36,298 nt of DNA from Erysipelotrichaceae bacterium (GTDB taxonomy: Bacteria; Bacillota_I; Bacilli_A; Erysipelotrichales; Erysipelotrichaceae), in the NCBI GenBank assembly GCA_017561615.1, contig JAFZBT010000108.1:1-36298 (forward strand), given 5' to 3'. Both the position numbers and the translations under genes were made by a program. Under the pieces are notes generated by a model that did not search any database, was not told the DNA's origin, and saw nothing but the letters and a program-made list of their open reading frames with translations. Below, piece by piece: positions 18,436 to 24,922 of the stretch (within the stretch, counting starts at the first letter, position 1; every line of letters starts with the position of its first letter).

Positions 18436-19071
18436 CTAACGGCTGTTGAAGTCGTCATTGATGGCCTGCAGAGGCTCTTCCGCCAGCTTTCTGCTCTCTC
18501 TGAAACTGCTGATCGCGCAGCCGAGGGTCTCATAGCTGACGCCAACGCCCTGACGGTCGGCATGCCAGTTGGCCGTACGGCTTCTGTCAATTCCCAGGCC
18601 CTCACTCACCGTAAAGGAATCGATGTTGGCTCCCAGAAACAGGAATTCCCAGCCCTTTTCCTTCCGGGCTTCGATCATCTTTCTGATCTTTCCGCCTTCG
18701 AACTCCCGGGAGGAGTTTTCCAGACCATCGGTAATGATGACCATGATCACGTCAGCATCCGCCTCGTTGGCAGTGATGTTGTCGATCCGGCTGATGGTCT
18801 GACCGATGGCGTCATAAAGTGCCGTGCAGCCGGAAGTGAAGTATTCATTTCTGGTGATCTTCTTTACGTCATGGATATCCAGGTGATCGTGCAGCCAGGC
18901 GAACTGATGATTGAACAGCATCGTGGTGATGTAGGCCCGGCCGTCCTTTTCCTTCTGCTGCTGGAGCATGGAATTGAAACCGCCGATGGTATCCTCAACC
19001 AGATCGCTCATTGAACCGCTTCTGTCCAGCACAAACGCTACTTCGGTAATTCTGTTGTCATTCTTCTTCAT
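18436..19071 (-). CDS. Stand-alone von Willebrand factor A domain protein
   Basis: A 211-residue cytoplasmic protein made of little more than one vWA domain. The metal-ion-dependent adhesion site is complete: Asp16, Ser18 and Ser20 in DRSGSMS, Thr83 in SGCTALYD, and Asp115 in ITDGLEN. No signal peptide or membrane helix is seen. Such vWA proteins act as metal-dependent assembly or chaperone modules; TerF/TerY-like forms occur in tellurium-resistance-type stress clusters, which fits the neighbouring macro and HAD genes, but this is inference. ATG at 19071 is preferred: AGGAGG lies 8 nt before it and only 2 nt before the ATG at 19077. It follows the macro gene after a terminator, so it may have its own promoter, which I cannot place. 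Confidence 0.85.
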   Translation of the reverse strand: MKKNDNRITEVAFVLDRSGSMSDLVEDTIGGFNSMLQQQKEKDGRAYITTMLFNHQFAWLHDHLDIHDVKKITRNEYFTSGCTALYDAIGQTISRIDNITANEADADVIMVIITDGLENSSREFEGGKIRKMIEARKEKGWEFLFLGANIDSFTVSEGLGIDRSRTANWHADRQGVGVSYETLGCAISSFRESRKLAEEPLQAINDDFNSR

Positions 19072-19095
19072 TTTCATGTCCTCCTTCTTTACACA

Positions 19096-19115
19096 CTCAT
19101 GATAAAGGACATGAG
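19096..19115. repeat. Inverted repeat before the vWA gene
   Basis: CTCATG and CATGAG are separated by 8 nt, between the macro-gene terminator and the vWA ribosome binding site. It could be an operator or a small RNA hairpin; the arms are only 6 bp, so chance cannot be excluded. Confidence 0.3.
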
Positions 19116-19118
19116 AAA

Positions 19119-19142
19119 GTAAAAGGTCGCCTCAGAGGCGAC
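19119..19142 (-). terminator. Terminator of the HAD-macro operon
   Basis: GTCGCCT and AGGCGAC form a perfect 7-bp GC-rich stem with a 3-nt loop 11 nt beyond the macro gene stop. It is followed on the minus strand by CTTTTACTTT, an interrupted U-tail. Confidence 0.65.
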
Positions 19143-19153
19143 ATTTTTACCGG

Positions 19154-20209
19154 TCAGTCACCATAGGACCCCAGGGTCTTCTGGTCGTTGACGAACAGCA
19201 GTTCGTTGACTTCGTGAATGTTGTAGATGCCGTTGAGGAAGCAGTGCTCGACGATGATGTCAAACATGCTGGAATGGCCGATGCGGTAACCGGCCTTCTC
19301 CAGCAGCTCATTGGCTTCATCCAGGCTCAGTTTCAGGGCAATGGCCAGGGCAATGGCGGTATTGCGCGAGGGCTGGTAGGAGGCATCGGTACGGATCTTG
19401 GAAAACAGCTTGCGGTCCAGGTTGGCCCGGCGGTAGACATCAGGGTCCAGCATCTGACGCTGGTCGATCAGCTTTAACAGGGCAATGGAGAAGCTGTCCT
19501 CCGGCTGACGGAAGCCTTCAGCTGAATCCAGGCTGAGGTCACTGTCCGTGATGTTAGATTGATAAGCCGGCTCCCGGCGCTTGCTTTCTTCTGCCGGGGC
19601 CATGGCAAATCCCGTAAAGGCGAAAGACTGCTGGCTTTCCATCTGCTTGAGATCGCTCATGACTTTCCGTCTGGCAGTTGTCTCCTCATCCTGACGTTTG
19701 TGCCAGAAGCTCAGCATCTGACGCTGTTGCCACTTCAGGTAGCCGGAGGGTTCATCGTAGATCATCAGCCGGACATCCAGATCGCTTTTTTCCAGATGAT
19801 CGCCGATGGCCCTGACCGCTATCTGCAGGGCTTCATCGCGGGGATAGCCGTAAATGCCCGAGGAGATAAGGGGAAAGGCGATGGATTCGATTTTCAGCTG
19901 CTCGGCCAGATCCAGTGAACTGGCATAGGTGCTGTAAAGCTGTTCAGGTTCGCCATGCTCACCGTCCTGATATACCGGACCGACGGCATGGATGATGTAG
20001 CGGCAAAGCTGCAGACCGTCCGTATAGACAGCTGAGCCGGTCGGACAGCCGCCGATCTGATCGCACAGCTGCTGAAGCTGCTGACGGCCGGCCTTTTCGA
20101 AGATGGCTCCGCAGACACCGCCGCCGGCCTGCAGCCAGGTGTTGGCGGCGTTGACGATGGCGTCGCACTTCTGCTCGGTAATGTCTCCGTGAATGATGCT
20201 TAACGGCAT
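19154..20209 (-). CDS. Macro domain protein with C-terminal HTH-like domain
   Basis: A 351-residue protein. Residues 1-160 are a macro domain: GDIT (8-11), VNAAN (19-23), GGGVCGAI (29-36) and the phosphate-binding SSGIYGYP (116-123). This fold binds ADP-ribose or related nucleotides and can remove ADP-ribose or O-acetyl groups. A linker (about 165-238) rich in Gln, Glu and Ser leads to an all-helical C-terminal domain. There, LDRKLFSKIRTD...PSRNTAIALAIALKLSLDEANELLEKAGY resembles an XRE-type helix-turn-helix (about 255-308). The protein could thus sense ADP-ribose-type metabolites and bind DNA, or the helical part may contact a partner. The start at 20209 overlaps the HAD stop by 10 nt with GAGGGGG 8 nt upstream, so the two are coupled. 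Confidence 0.88.
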   Translation of the reverse strand: MPLSIIHGDITEQKCDAIVNAANTWLQAGGGVCGAIFEKAGRQQLQQLCDQIGGCPTGSAVYTDGLQLCRYIIHAVGPVYQDGEHGEPEQLYSTYASSLDLAEQLKIESIAFPLISSGIYGYPRDEALQIAVRAIGDHLEKSDLDVRLMIYDEPSGYLKWQQRQMLSFWHKRQDEETTARRKVMSDLKQMESQQSFAFTGFAMAPAEESKRREPAYQSNITDSDLSLDSAEGFRQPEDSFSIALLKLIDQRQMLDPDVYRRANLDRKLFSKIRTDASYQPSRNTAIALAIALKLSLDEANELLEKAGYRIGHSSMFDIIVEHCFLNGIYNIHEVNELLFVNDQKTLGSYGD

Positions 20210-20850
20210 AACAGATACCCCCTCAGTTCTTCTGCGCTGTCAGCCAGGAAATCCGGCTCACAGCTTTCCAGCAGATCACGGTCGCGGTAGCCCCAGCTGA
20301 CGGCCACTGAAGCCATCGGAGCGTTGCGGGCGGTTAGAACGTCGACATCGGAGTCACCGATGTAGACGGCATCCTGACAGCTTACACCCAGAAGTTCCAG
20401 AGCATTGTAGACGCTCTGAGGATCGGGCTTTCTTCTGACGTTTTCCTGCTCGCCGATGGCGGCATCCATCAGCCCGGGGAAATAATGCTCGTCGATAATG
20501 TGCACGGCACTGTCGATCTTGTTGGAGACGATGGCGTTTTTAACACCCTTTTCCTTCAGTTCCCGGATCAGTTCGGGGATGCCGGGATAGGGGACCGTCT
20601 TGTCCAGACAGTGCGGCAGATAATAGTCGCTGAAATCCTTCCTGATGGCCGGCAGGTCCGGATTGTCCTGACCTCCGTCAACGGAAAGGGCGAAGAGCCT
20701 GCCGATGCCGTTGCCGATGCGGGCACGGGTCTGCGGCAGGGTAATCGGCTGATAGCCGTTTTTCTCAAGCGCATAATTAACGGCGTCAGCCAGATACTCC
20801 AGGGTATACAGCAGCGTGCCGTCCAGATCCCATATAACTGCTTTGAACAT
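20200..20850 (-). CDS. HAD hydrolase, phosphoglycolate-phosphatase-like
   Basis: A 216-residue phosphatase of the haloacid dehalogenase superfamily with a helical cap between motifs I and II. Motif I is DLDGT with nucleophile Asp8 and Asp10; motif II is IVSNK; motif III is the Lys of RRKPDP; motif IV is GDSDVD. It resembles Gph/PpaX enzymes, which act on small phosphoesters; the substrate is unknown. The ATG at 20850 is used, not the one at 20868: the latter overlaps a TATAAT promoter box, and the former has GGTGA at 5 nt and gives the normal family N-terminus (MFKAVIWDLDGT). It is the first gene of a leftward pair with the macro protein, which suggests a link to phosphorylated nucleotide or ADP-ribose products. 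Confidence 0.87.
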   Translation of the reverse strand: MFKAVIWDLDGTLLYTLEYLADAVNYALEKNGYQPITLPQTRARIGNGIGRLFALSVDGGQDNPDLPAIRKDFSDYYLPHCLDKTVPYPGIPELIRELKEKGVKNAIVSNKIDSAVHIIDEHYFPGLMDAAIGEQENVRRKPDPQSVYNALELLGVSCQDAVYIGDSDVDVLTARNAPMASVAVSWGYRDRDLLESCEPDFLADSAEELRGYLLCR

Positions 20851-20866
20851 ATTGATCACCGCCTTC

Positions 20867-20875
20867 ATTATAACA
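20867..20875 (-). promoter_or_regulatory. Extended -10 promoter of the HAD-macro operon
   Basis: On the minus strand TGTTATAAT (TG-N-TATAAT) lies 16 nt before the ATG at 20850. The predicted leader of about 10 nt just contains the GGTGA sequence. No -35 box is visible. Confidence 0.5.
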
Positions 20876-20896
20876 TACCTCCACCTTCTTCCTTTG

Positions 20897-20905
20897 TGCT
20901 AGAAT
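20897..20905 (+). promoter_or_regulatory. Extended -10 promoter of mscL
   Basis: TGCTAGAAT (TG-N-TAGAAT) lies 19 nt before the mscL ATG, with the GGAGG site between them. It is divergent from the HAD promoter; there is no clear -35 box. Confidence 0.5.
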
Positions 20906-20924
20906 AAAGGCGGAGGACATTTGT

Positions 20925-21326
20925 ATGAAAAAACTGTTCAATGAATTCAAGGAGTTTGCCGTTCAGGGCAATGTTCTGGATATGGCTGTTGGTACCATGA
21001 TCGGCGGAGCCTTCGGCAAGATCGTTACCTCACTGGTCAATGACATCCTCACTCCCCTGATCTCCCTGTTGCTGGGAAACATCGACCTCTCCGGTCTGTC
21101 AACTGACGTTACCGTCGGCGAGAATACCATCAGCGTCGGATGGGGTCTCTTCCTGCAGAATGTCGTCGATTTCCTGATCATGGCTGCCTGCATCTTTGCC
21201 TTCGTCAAGTTCTTCACTTCTCTCAAGAAGAAACCGGAAGAAGAACCGGCTGAACCGGAAGAACCCAAGCTCTCAGATGAAGCCAAGCTGCTGACGGAAA
21301 TCAAGGAACTGCTGGAAAAGAAGTAG
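20925..21326 (+). CDS. mscL: Large-conductance mechanosensitive channel MscL
   Basis: A 133-residue homopentameric channel that opens under membrane tension to release solutes after osmotic downshock. The N-terminal amphipathic helix MKKLFNEFKEFAVQGNVLD and the first pore helix with AVGTMIGGAFGKIVTSLVNDILTPL match the family well (pore helix about 15-45). TM2 is about residues 73-96, followed by a charged KKKPEEEPAEPEEP linker and the C-terminal helical bundle SDEAKLLTEIKELLEKK. The length is normal. GGAGG sits 8 nt before the ATG. It is a single-gene unit between a divergent promoter and a strong terminator. Confidence 0.97.
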   Translation: MKKLFNEFKEFAVQGNVLDMAVGTMIGGAFGKIVTSLVNDILTPLISLLLGNIDLSGLSTDVTVGENTISVGWGLFLQNVVDFLIMAACIFAFVKFFTSLKKKPEEEPAEPEEPKLSDEAKLLTEIKELLEKK

Positions 21327-21348
21327 TTCCAACGTTAATTACCTGACC

Positions 21349-21375
21349 AAAGGGACCTGTTAACAGGTCCCTTTT
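21349..21375. terminator. Terminator of mscL, shared with the convergent gene
   Basis: A perfect stem AAAGGGACCTG/CAGGTCCCTTT with loop TTAA is followed by TTTTGTTCT on the plus strand. On the minus strand the U-tail is weaker, so termination there is less certain. Confidence 0.85.
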
Positions 21376-21383
21376 GTTCTCTT

Positions 21384-22277
21384 TCATTTGTCTACATATT
21401 CTGAAGAGTCTGAATCGTGCAGTATCATATTTTCACAGTCAATGCCATGCTCCGCAAGAACCTTCCTCAGCTTTTCAATTTCTTCTTCTTTCTTCTTCAG
21501 TGATTGTTCTGTTTCCTGAAGCATCTGAACGGCATTCAGACGAGCCTGTCTTTCCTTTTCCATTTCAGCATCATGCTCAGCTTTCAACTGTTCGAATCTG
21601 TCTCTGAATATTCTCTCAACCAATTCGCTCAACTTCTTTGCCTCCTTTGAACCCGGACTCTTGAAGTCCCTGATGGTATTGCTGATGACCTCACTGTCCA
21701 TGCTACGGTAGTCACTGCAGGAAAAGTCGTGCATCAGTGAGCCTATGGTATTGCTGGTATCACGGTAGGTTCCGTTGACGAATATGACATTGCTTCCATC
21801 ATCATACGGTTCGTCAATCTCCCTGAACCTTGATTCCACATGATATATGGGCAGACCTTTCCCCAGCAGATCGTAATCTAATATAAATATTATATACGAA
21901 TTGCTGAGATTCTTAAACTTCTCGCCGCTGCCCAATGATTTGCTGTCCATCAATGCCTGATAATATCTGGCACGCTTGAACAGGTCAGGGTCTTTGGCCC
22001 GCTGAACTTCAATGTCATAGCGGTTGCCATACGTGTCGACTGCCATAACATCAAGTCGGACGCCATGGCCAAAGCTGTTACCGTAATTGTACTGACTCTT
22101 GACACTGGTAACTGTCAGATCATTCCTGTCCAGTATCACTCTGAGTACATATTCGGTCAGTTCGGTGTTGTCATTGAAGACCACCGACATGAAGGCATCA
22201 TCAAGCAGGGTAAACTCCTTGATTGTCTCCATGATTTCTTCCAGATTTTCCGGAAACTTCTCATTTAGGGTACACAT
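21384..22277 (-). CDS. Rpn/PDDEXK-family nuclease-like protein
   Basis: A 297-residue protein of the Rpn (recombination-promoting nuclease, formerly putative transposase) family with a PD-(D/E)XK nuclease fold. Asp76 in HGVRLDVMAVD and Glu90-Val-Gln92 in RYDIEVQ form the core D...ExQ site typical of this family; the N-terminal TLLDDAFMSVVF and YYQALMDSKSL blocks also fit. The C-terminal third is a charged helical region (about 215-285) that likely forms a coiled coil. The ATG at 22277 has AGGAGG at 7 nt; the longer frame upstream has none. The sequence looks AT-richer, with different codon choice from its neighbours, which suggests recent transfer. Members are often present in many copies per genome and some are phage-defence or mobile genes; no transposon ends are seen. 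Confidence 0.88.
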   Translation of the reverse strand: MCTLNEKFPENLEEIMETIKEFTLLDDAFMSVVFNDNTELTEYVLRVILDRNDLTVTSVKSQYNYGNSFGHGVRLDVMAVDTYGNRYDIEVQRAKDPDLFKRARYYQALMDSKSLGSGEKFKNLSNSYIIFILDYDLLGKGLPIYHVESRFREIDEPYDDGSNVIFVNGTYRDTSNTIGSLMHDFSCSDYRSMDSEVISNTIRDFKSPGSKEAKKLSELVERIFRDRFEQLKAEHDAEMEKERQARLNAVQMLQETEQSLKKKEEEIEKLRKVLAEHGIDCENMILHDSDSSEYVDK

Positions 22278-22365
22278 TGTTTTTCCTCCTGTAAACCTTT
22301 CTATAATGGAAAAACTGTAAAAATCCGACTGCCGTGGAGGTCTCTTCACGTGTACCTTTTTTCTG

Positions 22366-22520: not shown

Positions 22521-24503
22521 CTATTTTTCAATGAAGAAATCGCAGTCGATCAGGCTGATTTCGTTTTCCGCTTCCGGTTTTTCCATGACCAGTACAGTTT
22601 CAGCCTCTTCACGTGTACTGACTCTTTCCGCTTTCTGACCTTCCAGCAGCATTTCCAGATAAGTCTCCAGATTAAGCAGGGAAGTCGTATGGTCCTTGAC
22701 GGAATAAGCGCCTTCCATCCACTGCTGTTCGGATTTCGTGCCATCCAGACACAGATAACGTCCCACGGCGTTTACGTATCCGTAGTTGATGGTCCTGGTT
22801 CTGGTGCGGATGTCATTGTAGAAGAAGCAGTTCTTGGGATCGTACAGCTTGACATTGGTGCCGGTCTTCTTGACAGCCATCAAGCCAACAAAGCACTTGC
22901 CGATCTGATCAAAGGTCGGCTTGCCGGCGTACAGGTTGATGTTGAACTGGATCTCATTGACCTGGGAGTCCAGCTTAAGATCCACGTATTCAGCAGCGTC
23001 GCTGTGGGTGATGTCGCCGCTGTGGACGCAGCAGTCATTCTTATAATCGGTATTCCAGCCAATGTACAGCTGATCATAGTCCCTCGTGCTGCCGCTGGCG
23101 TGCAGGTCAATGTCCACTCGCTCCTTGTCATTCCAGTAGACGAAGAAGCGTATGTAATCAACGTTTTCAGGTATCTTATAGGCCAGACCGTTACGGACAT
23201 AGCCGGCTTCATCGCCCTTGGCCAGCAGCATCGAATGCGCCAGGTCAAGCCGGCCTTCATCAATGAAGACCTTCTTTCCGGCCAGCGGAGTCTCAATGAG
23301 CTGCAGCTTGCGCTGGAGAACATCACGGAGCACTTCATAGCTCTTCAGGCTTTCTTCACTGCGTCCCAGCTGCGTAGCCGCAAAGATCAGGGTGCGGGTG
23401 GAAAGATCCTGAGTTCTTTCCAGCAGGCTGTTTCTGATCTCCTGACGGTCCAGTCCGAGCTTGAGCAGCCAGTTGGTCCAGCGCAGCAGCATGCCCGGCC
23501 GCTGAGCTATGAAGCTGACGACGCCTTCCTCGCCCCTGGACAGCATGGCCTTTACCTGGCCTTCCCAGGAAGTCAGCTCGCCGTTGCGCAGGGCTCTGAC
23601 GACTTCCTTATGTTCTTCTGAGCGGGAAAAGCGGTTATAGGAAAGGTATTCCAGAACCTTGACGGTCCTTCTGGCCTTTCTGTTGGTCAGGATGACGTTG
23701 GCCTTCCAGTCTTCCACCGGATAGCTCTCGATCAGGCTGACCAGCCGGTTCTTCTGAGCAGAAGAGAAATGGTACTTGCTGTGAGTGAGAACGTAGTCCA
23801 GACACTTGAGCACGTCTCCGGTATGCTGGCACAGAGATGAAGCGGCCTTCTGGAACGCTTCGTTATCGTCCAGCCTGAACAGTTCATAAAAGACCGGCAT
23901 CATGTTCTGCTTGAAGGGAACGTCATACTCCAGAGCGGTCACGTCGATAAACTGGAGAGCCACGCGGATGATCTCCAGTTCCTGAGCGGTCAGCCGCTCA
24001 GCCTTTTTCAGCAGTCTTTCAACCGGCAGACGGTAAGCGTCTTCGGTAGTGATCAGTTCGATCGTCTTGGCCTTCAGAAGGGCTTCATCGCTTTCGGTCT
24101 TTTCCGTATCTTCCACTTCCGGCAGCCAGCCTCTCTTCACCTGGTAATCCTGGCCGAAAAACCGGGCAAGCTGCTCAACGCCGTAAGTGCTCATGTAGTG
24201 TGTCAGCTGATGGAAGCGGAACTGCGCTTCCTCCATGTTCATGACCTGCGAGGGGAAGTCGGGATACATCGGCTTGGCTGAGACATCGGGGATCAGGTCC
24301 CGGAAAGAAACCAGAAAGTTTTCCAGGCTGTCCGAACCGGCCAGCTGGGCAACGCCCTGAGCGGTAAGAGTGTATCCGAGATTCTGCAGCTCGGCGTTGA
24401 CGGTAACGGCTTTCTGCAGCCTTTCATCCGTCAGTTCATGATTCGGTTTCTCATAAACGGCCAGACGGAGCTGTTCCAGAAGATTCCTGCAATACTGAGA
24501 CAT
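22521..24503 (-). CDS. Large protein with TerD-like C-terminal region
   Basis: A 660-residue cytoplasmic protein. Residues 1-440 are mostly helical with no motif I can assign. Residues about 445-610 look like a TerD-type calcium-binding fold: IRFFVYW, VDIDLHASG (463-471), VHSGDITHSDAAEYVDLKL (492-510), then INLYAGKPTF. The D-DL-S and SGD-T blocks are the shared elements, but the assignment is moderate. TerD-domain proteins act with vWA and macro or nucleotide-processing proteins in stress and phage-response clusters; such genes lie 2-4 kb away here. The ATG at 24503 is chosen because GGAGG is 7 nt upstream. The gene lies directly downstream, on the same strand, of the two small-RNA-like units and could be controlled by them. 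Confidence 0.65.
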   Translation of the reverse strand: MSQYCRNLLEQLRLAVYEKPNHELTDERLQKAVTVNAELQNLGYTLTAQGVAQLAGSDSLENFLVSFRDLIPDVSAKPMYPDFPSQVMNMEEAQFRFHQLTHYMSTYGVEQLARFFGQDYQVKRGWLPEVEDTEKTESDEALLKAKTIELITTEDAYRLPVERLLKKAERLTAQELEIIRVALQFIDVTALEYDVPFKQNMMPVFYELFRLDDNEAFQKAASSLCQHTGDVLKCLDYVLTHSKYHFSSAQKNRLVSLIESYPVEDWKANVILTNRKARRTVKVLEYLSYNRFSRSEEHKEVVRALRNGELTSWEGQVKAMLSRGEEGVVSFIAQRPGMLLRWTNWLLKLGLDRQEIRNSLLERTQDLSTRTLIFAATQLGRSEESLKSYEVLRDVLQRKLQLIETPLAGKKVFIDEGRLDLAHSMLLAKGDEAGYVRNGLAYKIPENVDYIRFFVYWNDKERVDIDLHASGSTRDYDQLYIGWNTDYKNDCCVHSGDITHSDAAEYVDLKLDSQVNEIQFNINLYAGKPTFDQIGKCFVGLMAVKKTGTNVKLYDPKNCFFYNDIRTRTRTINYGYVNAVGRYLCLDGTKSEQQWMEGAYSVKDHTTSLLNLETYLEMLLEGQKAERVSTREEAETVLVMEKPEAENEISLIDCDFFIEK

Positions 24504-24552
24504 GATCATACCTCCATTCATTTTTTTAATCTATGTTAATGGGCCTGAAGTC

Positions 24553-24585
24553 AAAAATAAGCCCGACTGCTTTCAAGCAGGCTTT
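24553..24585 (-). terminator. Intrinsic terminator ending the second RNA unit
   Basis: On the minus strand AAAGCC and GGGCTT close a stem with an inner TGCTT/AAGCA hairpin, followed by ATTTTT. It lies 52 nt before the start codon of the TerD-like gene and well after the phosphoglucomutase terminator. It therefore implies a separate minus-strand transcript in the gap. Confidence 0.7.
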
Positions 24586-24736
24586 CCTGCCAGCCTTTCC
24601 ATGGATAAAAGGATGCTTGACGTGTGATTCGAACACACAGAATTGACAGGAAAACGTCAGGCTCGGCGAAGACTATGTGTTACCGGATGATCGTGAATGG
24701 ATAAAAGGAAGGTAACAGGCGCAGTGCACGTCTTCT
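24555..24736 (-). ncRNA. Candidate structured RNA, copy 2 (about 180 nt)
   Basis: The predicted start, an A 7 nt after the TATAAT box, coincides with the first base of the structure. P1 is GAAGAC (24735-24730) with GUCUUC (24673-24668). A small hairpin has GUGC and GCGC arms around ACU (24729-24719). P2 is UGUUACC (24717-24711) with GGUAACA (24684-24678). The junction strand CAUA closes a three-way junction, identical to copy 1. The 26-nt P2 loop begins UUCCUUUUAUCCAU. Unlike copy 1 the RNA continues into a 3' domain: a hairpin GUGUG-UUCGAAU-CACAC inside a longer UGACG/CGUCA pairing, then a second CCUUUUAUCCAU, then a terminator. I do not recognise this RNA. It may act as a trans-acting small RNA or as a leader of the gene at 24503. 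Confidence 0.65.
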
Positions 24737-24742
24737 GCCTTC

Positions 24743-24772
24743 ATTATAAACCAAGGCCGGCGATAATGTTAC
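24743..24772 (-). promoter_or_regulatory. Promoter of RNA copy 2
   Basis: GTAACA and a perfect TATAAT are separated by 18 nt on the minus strand. The segment GGTTTATAATG is the same as before copy 1, and the distance from TATAAT to the RNA's AGAAGAC is the same. Confidence 0.6.
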
Positions 24773-24779
24773 CAGAAAC

Positions 24780-24809
24780 AAAAAATGCCTGCTGTATCTC
24801 CGGCAGGCA
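24780..24809 (-). terminator. Terminator of RNA copy 1
   Basis: On the minus strand TGCCTGC and GCAGGCA form a perfect 7-bp stem with a 10-nt loop, followed by six T. It begins directly after the 3' strand of the P1 stem. Confidence 0.85.
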
Positions 24810-24886
24810 GAAGACTATGTGTTACCTCGTTATTCGTTTATGGACAAAAGTAAAAGGAAGGTAACAGGCGCTCTCGCACGTCTTCT
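24780..24886 (-). ncRNA. Candidate structured RNA, copy 1 (about 107 nt)
   Basis: A complete small RNA unit: promoter, structured body and terminator. P1 is GAAGAC (24885-24880) with GUCUUC (24815-24810). A hairpin GUGC-GAGA-GCGC (24879-24868) has a GNRA loop. P2 is UGUUACC (24866-24860) with GGUAACA (24826-24820). CAUA links P2 to P1, giving a three-way junction. The 33-nt P2 loop begins UUCCUUUUACUUUUGUCCAU. Compared with copy 2, all stem bases are the same while the small loop (GAGA against ACU) and the P2 loop differ in sequence and length; this is the pattern of a conserved fold. No open reading frame of note is present. The pyrimidine-rich loop could pair with Shine-Dalgarno regions of mRNAs. 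I cannot match it to an RNA family I know. Confidence 0.72.
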
Positions 24887-24892
24887 ATGGAC

Positions 24893-24922
24893 ATTATAAA
24901 CCAGCCCCTTCCTTCAGGGCAA
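24893..24922 (-). promoter_or_regulatory. Promoter of RNA copy 1
   Basis: TTGCCC and a perfect TATAAT are separated by 18 nt on the minus strand. The predicted +1 at 24886 is the A preceding the P1 stem. It lies just downstream of the phosphoglucomutase terminator. Confidence 0.7.

Follow-up and report, generated by a model that had tools for sequence, protein, structure and literature searches.

What is encoded on the minus strand between positions 24886 and 24555 of contig JAFZBT010000108.1 from an Erysipelotrichaceae bacterium (36,298 nucleotides, here called the window), where a first-pass annotation had seen two tandem copies of an unrecognised RNA, and what has it to do with the large gene (22521..24521, minus strand) that follows? 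We found that the stretch carries structured RNA units, three in number, and that the gene encodes a protein predicted to be a divergent TROVE-like ring of helical repeats. Ro60, an autoantigen in humans, and Y RNAs are found from bacteria to humans, and we consider it probable that the locus specifies a ribonucleoprotein acting like the bacterial Ro60/Y RNA system. The RNA family, its covariation, its linkage to the gene, the predicted fold of the protein and the adjacency of rtcB were established by computation.

The first two units begin with AGAAGAC at 24886 (copy 1) and 24736 (copy 2). As had been annotated, they have identical stems, namely P1 (AGAAGAC/GUCUUC), a 4-bp GUGC/GCGC hairpin and P2 (UGUUACC/GGUAACA), and the same CAUA, and differ in their loops (small, GAGA versus ACU; large, 33 versus 26 nucleotides). 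Unit 1 (24809..24886, minus strand) has P1 at 24886-24880/24815-24809, then the hairpin, the 5′ strand of P2 at 24866-24860, the loop TTCCTTTTA at 24859-24851 and CATA; unit 2 (24667..24736, minus strand) has the same stems and its loop TTCCTTTTA at 24710-24702. Unit 1 is preceded by a putative sigma-70-type promoter, TTGCCC-18-TATAAT (24893..24922, minus strand), and unit 2 by GTAACA-18-TATAAT (24743..24772, minus strand), each 10/12 by consensus match alone; in both copies the −10 box TATAAT ends 6 nucleotides ahead of P1. The perfect terminator attributed to copy 1 is likewise present at 24780..24808 (minus strand; read from the sequence and by folding) as a 6-bp stem GCCTGC/GCAGGC with a loop of 10 and U6; it is absent from the list of our terminator scan, whose loop limit was 8. 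What the annotation overlooked is the third unit, at 24561-24664.

None of the 4227 Rfam families reached its gathering score at the units or anywhere in the window, three window matches at E up to 10 being far under their families' thresholds, and ARAGORN reported no tRNA there. At the loci of the two genus relatives (L104 in genome G145 and L111 in G150) and at 15 orthologue loci, the only Rfam matches at the gathering score were two true tRNAs. Folding of copy 1 with its terminator was better than that of all shuffled sequences (z −3.62, 0/200 equally good), and neither the core of copy 1 without the terminator (z −1.87, 9/200 as good) nor the core of copy 2 (z −1.45, 19/200) stood out; copy 2 plus part of the downstream stretch gave z −0.71 (35/200). 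Since the stems are identical in copies 1 and 2, these two by themselves yield no covariation.

Orthologues of the protein provided it. Within the order, 24 of 315 genomes matched at E ≤ 0.001, 16 of these at E ≤ 6e-91, and in all 14 genomes whose sequence covers both the start of the gene and the stretch before it the RNA lies directly 5′ of the gene, as in the window. A descriptor of the RNA scored 32-43 at these 14 loci and a median of 0 in 300 motif-keeping shuffles (95% point 27.5, maximum 33). The alignment comprises 21 of 22 hand-bounded units, L128 being omitted as a near-copy of L122. Its stems are of quite different sequence, yet 97.8% of 278 cells pair, with 107 cells changed on both sides; the covariation score was 0.888, versus 0.216 for shuffles (0/500) and 0.06-0.14 with slid partners. 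Two of five covariation measures, the counts of pairs and of pair types, fell within the shuffles (219/500 and 442/500), because random partners too give many types. In the basal helix P1, formed by the presumed 5′ and 3′ ends of the RNA, 97.5% of cells are paired and 7 of 8 pairs have changed on both sides. A separate strand-shuffle count found 143/147 paired for P1 and 124/126 for P2, where shuffling gave means of 91 and 72. All 21 units have C-G at both inner closing pairs, and most have a 3′ junction resembling AGAUA, CAUA or UGAUG. A locus holds one to three units, often a single one, of 60-120 nucleotides. The three-way junction that had been drawn holds for the two window copies and not for L124, L126 and L127, which lack the optional 5′ hairpin.

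That this is a conserved structured RNA family outside Rfam is strongly supported, because it has no gathering-score match and its stems change in a compensatory manner between genomes. The first-pass annotation had said as much of its two copies, and had named a lack of covarying homologues and a clear Rfam hit as findings that would speak against it; the homologues do covary and nothing in Rfam reaches its gathering score.

The loop opens with HUMCUUUUA, which occupies the first nine loop positions in all 21 aligned units. Such a C/U-rich loop (UUCCUUUU), predicted to be unpaired in units 1 and 2 that also follow promoter-like sites, could pair with Shine-Dalgarno sequences of mRNAs, as in trans-acting antisense small RNAs. 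We hold this to be very unlikely, the fixed position of the motif and the similar 3′ junction arguing against it, as does the distribution of the RNA, since a general small RNA need not track one gene. Model R2 detected the RNA at 11 places in 9 of the 315 genomes, all adjoining the Ro-like gene; as R2 was built mostly at these same loci, what informs is the lack of matches at other places, among at most 14 candidates scored per genome and with 5 of 14 known genomes missed. Units 1, 2 and 3, all of them training sequences, scored 58.2, 49.7 and 51.8 bits; outside the training set R2 found units at L121 (29.0 bits) and L123 (30.9 bits), which are not among the 22 hand-bounded ones, and its best score in 80 loci without the gene was 18.2 bits.

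The two-copy model R1 recovered the two genus relatives among 244 genomes; four further matches (E 0.02-0.06) look like chance alignments and were rejected. Loci with the best relatives of the upstream phosphoglucomutase (≤76% identity) had no RNA at the syntenic place, and a DNA search of seven genomes with such relatives gave weak matches (best E 0.007). The descriptor at ≥31 had no match in L132-L145, and the short flanks of weaker bacterial homologues contained no RNA. Protein matches at contig ends (L129, L140, L141) and a fragment with stops (L131, in which R2 found nothing) were dropped. A one-step tblastn returned remote matches only, in three phage and two plasmid records. Orthologues known as proteins from Ruminococcus and Oscillospiraceae could be located in 0/8, 0/12 and, at E ≤ 1e-30, 0/394 genomes, so that the more remote branch is represented by L146 alone.

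L146 is a viral contig encoding an orthologue with 45% identity to the window protein, and it bears on whether the RNA is a cis-acting leader that attenuates or autoregulates the gene downstream, the 3′ strand of P1 and a U-run serving as terminator. A leader would explain why the RNA ends just 5′ of the gene on the same strand in the window and the 14 genomes, and why a U-run (≥5 T in 9) follows the 3′ strand of P1 in 15/21 units. A leader should, however, always lie 5′ of the gene it regulates, and at this one locus the gene comes first and all three units follow it, with the longest ORF (open reading frame) after them on the opposite strand; the RNA is thus gene-linked and not necessarily a leader. 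Moreover, unit 1 of the window lies between a promoter-like site and a terminator of its own, a tandem array in which each unit has separate stems would be unusual for leaders, and no antiterminator was noticed by eye, although no systematic search was made. We therefore regard the leader as unlikely. Of the two possibilities raised at first, paralogous small RNAs or leaders, stand-alone RNAs are a better fit than obligatory leaders, because the L146 units sit downstream. These units have no good promoter-like site in front (best 7/12) and thus may be co-transcribed with the gene. Directly 5′ of the orthologue, where other genomes carry the Y-like RNA, L146 has a complete tRNA-Leu (taa; 2127-2213) with a promoter-like TTGACT...TATAAT seen by eye. 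A further 63 viral contigs (L147-L209) encode remote homologues of 20-35% identity; none of these loci carries the RNA, and their proteins may use other RNAs.

The third unit of the window (24561..24664, minus strand) resembles in part a tRNA. It consists of P1 GAGCCTGAC/GTCGGGCTT, P2 TCAAGC/GCTTGA, the loop ATCCTTTTA and the 3′ junction AAGCA; a terminator-like U-run past the 3′ strand of P1 (24553..24557, minus strand) separates it from the gene, and there is no terminator between it and copy 2. The plus-strand repeat ATGGATAAAAGGA is exact in unit 3 and copy 2 and 85% in copy 1. G145 and G150 have one copy 5′ of the orthologue of the 666-residue ORF, followed by the second domain that in the window is unit 3. 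This domain comprises P1 GCCUGAC/GUCGGGC with a U-run, a hairpin whose loop is the tRNA T-loop GUUCGAAUC, and the loop motif NUCCUUUUA, which in the window is an additional copy of the ATGGATAAAAGGA repeat. In the window this T-arm mimic reads GTGTG-TTCGAAT-CACAC (24622..24638, minus strand). The T-loop is exact and invariant in the three genomes, while the stem varies (GUGUG/CACAC, GGUG/CACC and UGUG/CACA, one pair changing from U-A to G-C); a D-arm was not seen. A long, variable stem P3, CCTGTCA (24650-24644)/TGGCAGG (24592-24586) in the window (24586..24650, minus strand), has the counterpart AUGUCCC/GGGACAU in G145; in G150 only the six-pair core CUGUCC/GGACAG is clear, the ungapped register counting 7/11. 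As P3 crosses P2 (UCAAGC/GCUUGA), the two would either make a pseudoknot or take turns. When each of the three sequences was folded by itself, P1 formed and P3 was preferred over P2; two of the folds were better than shuffles (z −3.4 and −4.2) and that of G150 was not (z −1.1).

The protein has 666 residues from 24521; ATG 24503, giving 660, is the likelier start, because GGAGG follows 24521 and the identical protein P0001 has 660 residues. The orthologues in G145 and G150 are 83% and 73% identical to the longer ORF. TROVE (PF05731) did not match the window protein even at E up to 10, was absent from the 25 of 35 families listed for 49 family members, and was found in 0/7 genomes of the genus (a control genome matched); TROVE loci were found in 0/149 genomes. 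In the predicted model the best matches of the ring domain were TROVE/Ro60 structures at modest Z (9.6-11.0), the match beginning only at residue 145-161, and the C-terminal domain has a TerD fold instead of vWA. The protein may nevertheless be some other helical-repeat RNA-binding protein, not Ro-like though paired with this RNA, given that TROVE support from sequence and Foldseek is weak. We give this a slight chance: the alignments with the four TROVE/Ro60 structures listed span 238-263 residues at 3.8-4.9 Å, whereas 43 of the other 46 cover 79-150 residues and the remaining three reach 158-246 only at 13.7-18.3 Å, and rtcB adjoins at two loci. The predicted ring with TerD also speaks against a type III toxin-antitoxin-like system, in which tandem structured RNA repeats would neutralise the protein of the adjacent gene. 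Repeats and a terminator ahead of a protein gene are the typical layout of such systems; a 660-residue protein that PADLOC assigned to no family, and units of the length given above that are often single, make it highly improbable.

Among 7996 candidates scored, 577 homologues matched at E ≤ 0.001; of 120 listed, 9 bear names, all 'hypothetical protein'. All 49 members tested match the MXAN_6230/SCO0854 family RING protein (NF041916) at E ≤ 1, the window protein with 65.5 bits, best in the TerD part and far under the 600-bit cut-off. The four phage homologues tested match the phage family phrog_33734, which has no assigned function, over much of their own length, and the window protein matches its C-terminal, TerD-side part.

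Several limits apply to the RNA evidence. One real locus, L121 (descriptor score 32), falls under the shuffle maximum. Units were located via the motif [AC]CTTTTA, whose presence in the consensus therefore follows from the search itself; MAFFT gaps remain in the outer P2 pairs of L124, L126 and L127, and most named sources are assembled metagenomes. The genome-wide R2 run, in which at most 14 candidates were scored per genome, matched mostly training loci and missed 5 of the 14 genomes in which units are known (G216, G221, G231, G301 and G303). At ≥31 the descriptor gave 6 matches in 80 phosphoglucomutase loci and 4 in 64 viral loci, half of the latter in L146. Three strict patterns matched one contig of a viral collection, L146, by the first pattern, which had been written from known units, a unit of L146 among them, and thus matched by construction; the remaining two matched nothing. 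For unit 3 the comparison comprises three sequences, the P2 core CAAGC/GCUUG is invariant without compensatory change, and the minimum-energy fold favours P3.

How far does the likeness go? Ro60/TROVE proteins bind Y RNA as well as misfolded RNA, and YrlA tethers the ring protein to PNPase. Chen in 2014 is reported to have found a tRNA-like domain on one or more of the Y RNAs of each species. The bacterial Y RNA YrlA is encoded beside a Ro-like gene and has a basal stem of its 5′ and 3′ ends, one Y RNA has a tRNA-like part, and rtcB is a neighbour in some genomes (PMC8394870, PMC7790460); Salmonella is among the bacteria with rsr, Y RNAs and rtcBA in a single operon (PMC7790460). The new RNAs share the basal stem, one RNA with a putative tRNA-like part, the adjacency of rtcB in some genomes and, if the protein is Ro-like, the neighbouring gene. 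They differ from YrlA in having no Rfam match, in the HUMCUUUUA loop and AGAUA-type junction, and in a T-arm seen in one genus only, with no D-arm seen. YrlA superposes on tRNA via circular permutation (PMC11472068), and in unit 3 the strand 3′ of the T-arm could base-pair with one further on, a candidate permutation. The protein differs from Ro60/Rsr (TROVE plus vWA) in lacking a PF05731 match and in a predicted TerD fold replacing vWA. In RNA plan, linkage to a ring protein, multiple units, one with a T-arm, and rtcB at part of the loci, the system resembles the organisation of Rsr/YrlA (PMC8394870). As the tests for PF05731, vWA and Rfam failed, neither protein nor RNA is assignable to a known family, and we call them Ro/Y-like. 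Among titles and abstract openings on Ro60, Y RNA, TROVE and TerD neither the RNA nor a TROVE-TerD protein was described, and a search on SCO0854/MXAN_6230 found no paper, most subscription papers lying outside the scope of both.

Directly 3′ of the gene lies rtcB in G312 (10 nucleotides on) and G302, and an rtcB-like stretch lies about 3.6 kb off at the viral homologue locus L186. Eight neighbour genes were scanned: one rtcB, two amidohydrolases, a glycosyl hydrolase, PAP2, GNAT and two without family; those other than rtcB are uninformative, and further neighbours differ among loci. In the window, PDDEXK/Rpn nuclease, HAD, Macro and vWA genes come after the Ro-like gene (18436-22349, minus strand). 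They are common to the window, G145 (PDDEXK as a 46-residue match only) and G150; an RNA-repair operon was considered and rejected in favour of local synteny, six other orthologue loci lacking them at E 1e-5. The upstream phosphoglucomutase is 94% (G145), 89% (G150) and 76% (goat-gut Erysipelotrichaceae) identical, and the source of the window is probably a gut member of this family. In G150 a 730-residue ORF on the other strand (L111, 9516-11708), by eye methyl-accepting-chemotaxis-like, separates the RNA from the phosphoglucomutase gene; G145 has a similar stretch (L104), and the window has an extra RNA copy in its place.

We propose that the 660-residue protein would be a TROVE-like helical ring with a TerD-like C-terminal domain in the place of vWA, and that its partners would be the one to three tandem small RNAs of the new family encoded beside the gene and, in the window, lying behind promoter-like sites of their own. 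The basal stem, junction and HUMCUUUUA loop are the likely protein-binding site, and the ribonucleoprotein would handle RNA that is damaged or misfolded, assisted in some genomes by the RtcB ligase. We see an even chance that this is a separate Ro/Y RNA branch. Its ring protein, with TerD for vWA, would connect RNA quality control of the Ro type with stress sensing of the Ter type; it would have a family of tandem Y-like RNAs to itself in gut Firmicutes and distant protein relatives on large viral contigs (phrog_33734), and one of the RNAs would have gained its T-arm mimic independently of YrlA. If true, a relative has been missed by sequence models, vWA is exchangeable for TerD, and the idea of tRNA mimicry would become open to test in another lineage. 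The known range of Ro/Y-type ribonucleoproteins would be widened to gut commensals and to remote relatives on viral contigs, and the large protein family of 577 homologues would have a function from which to start.
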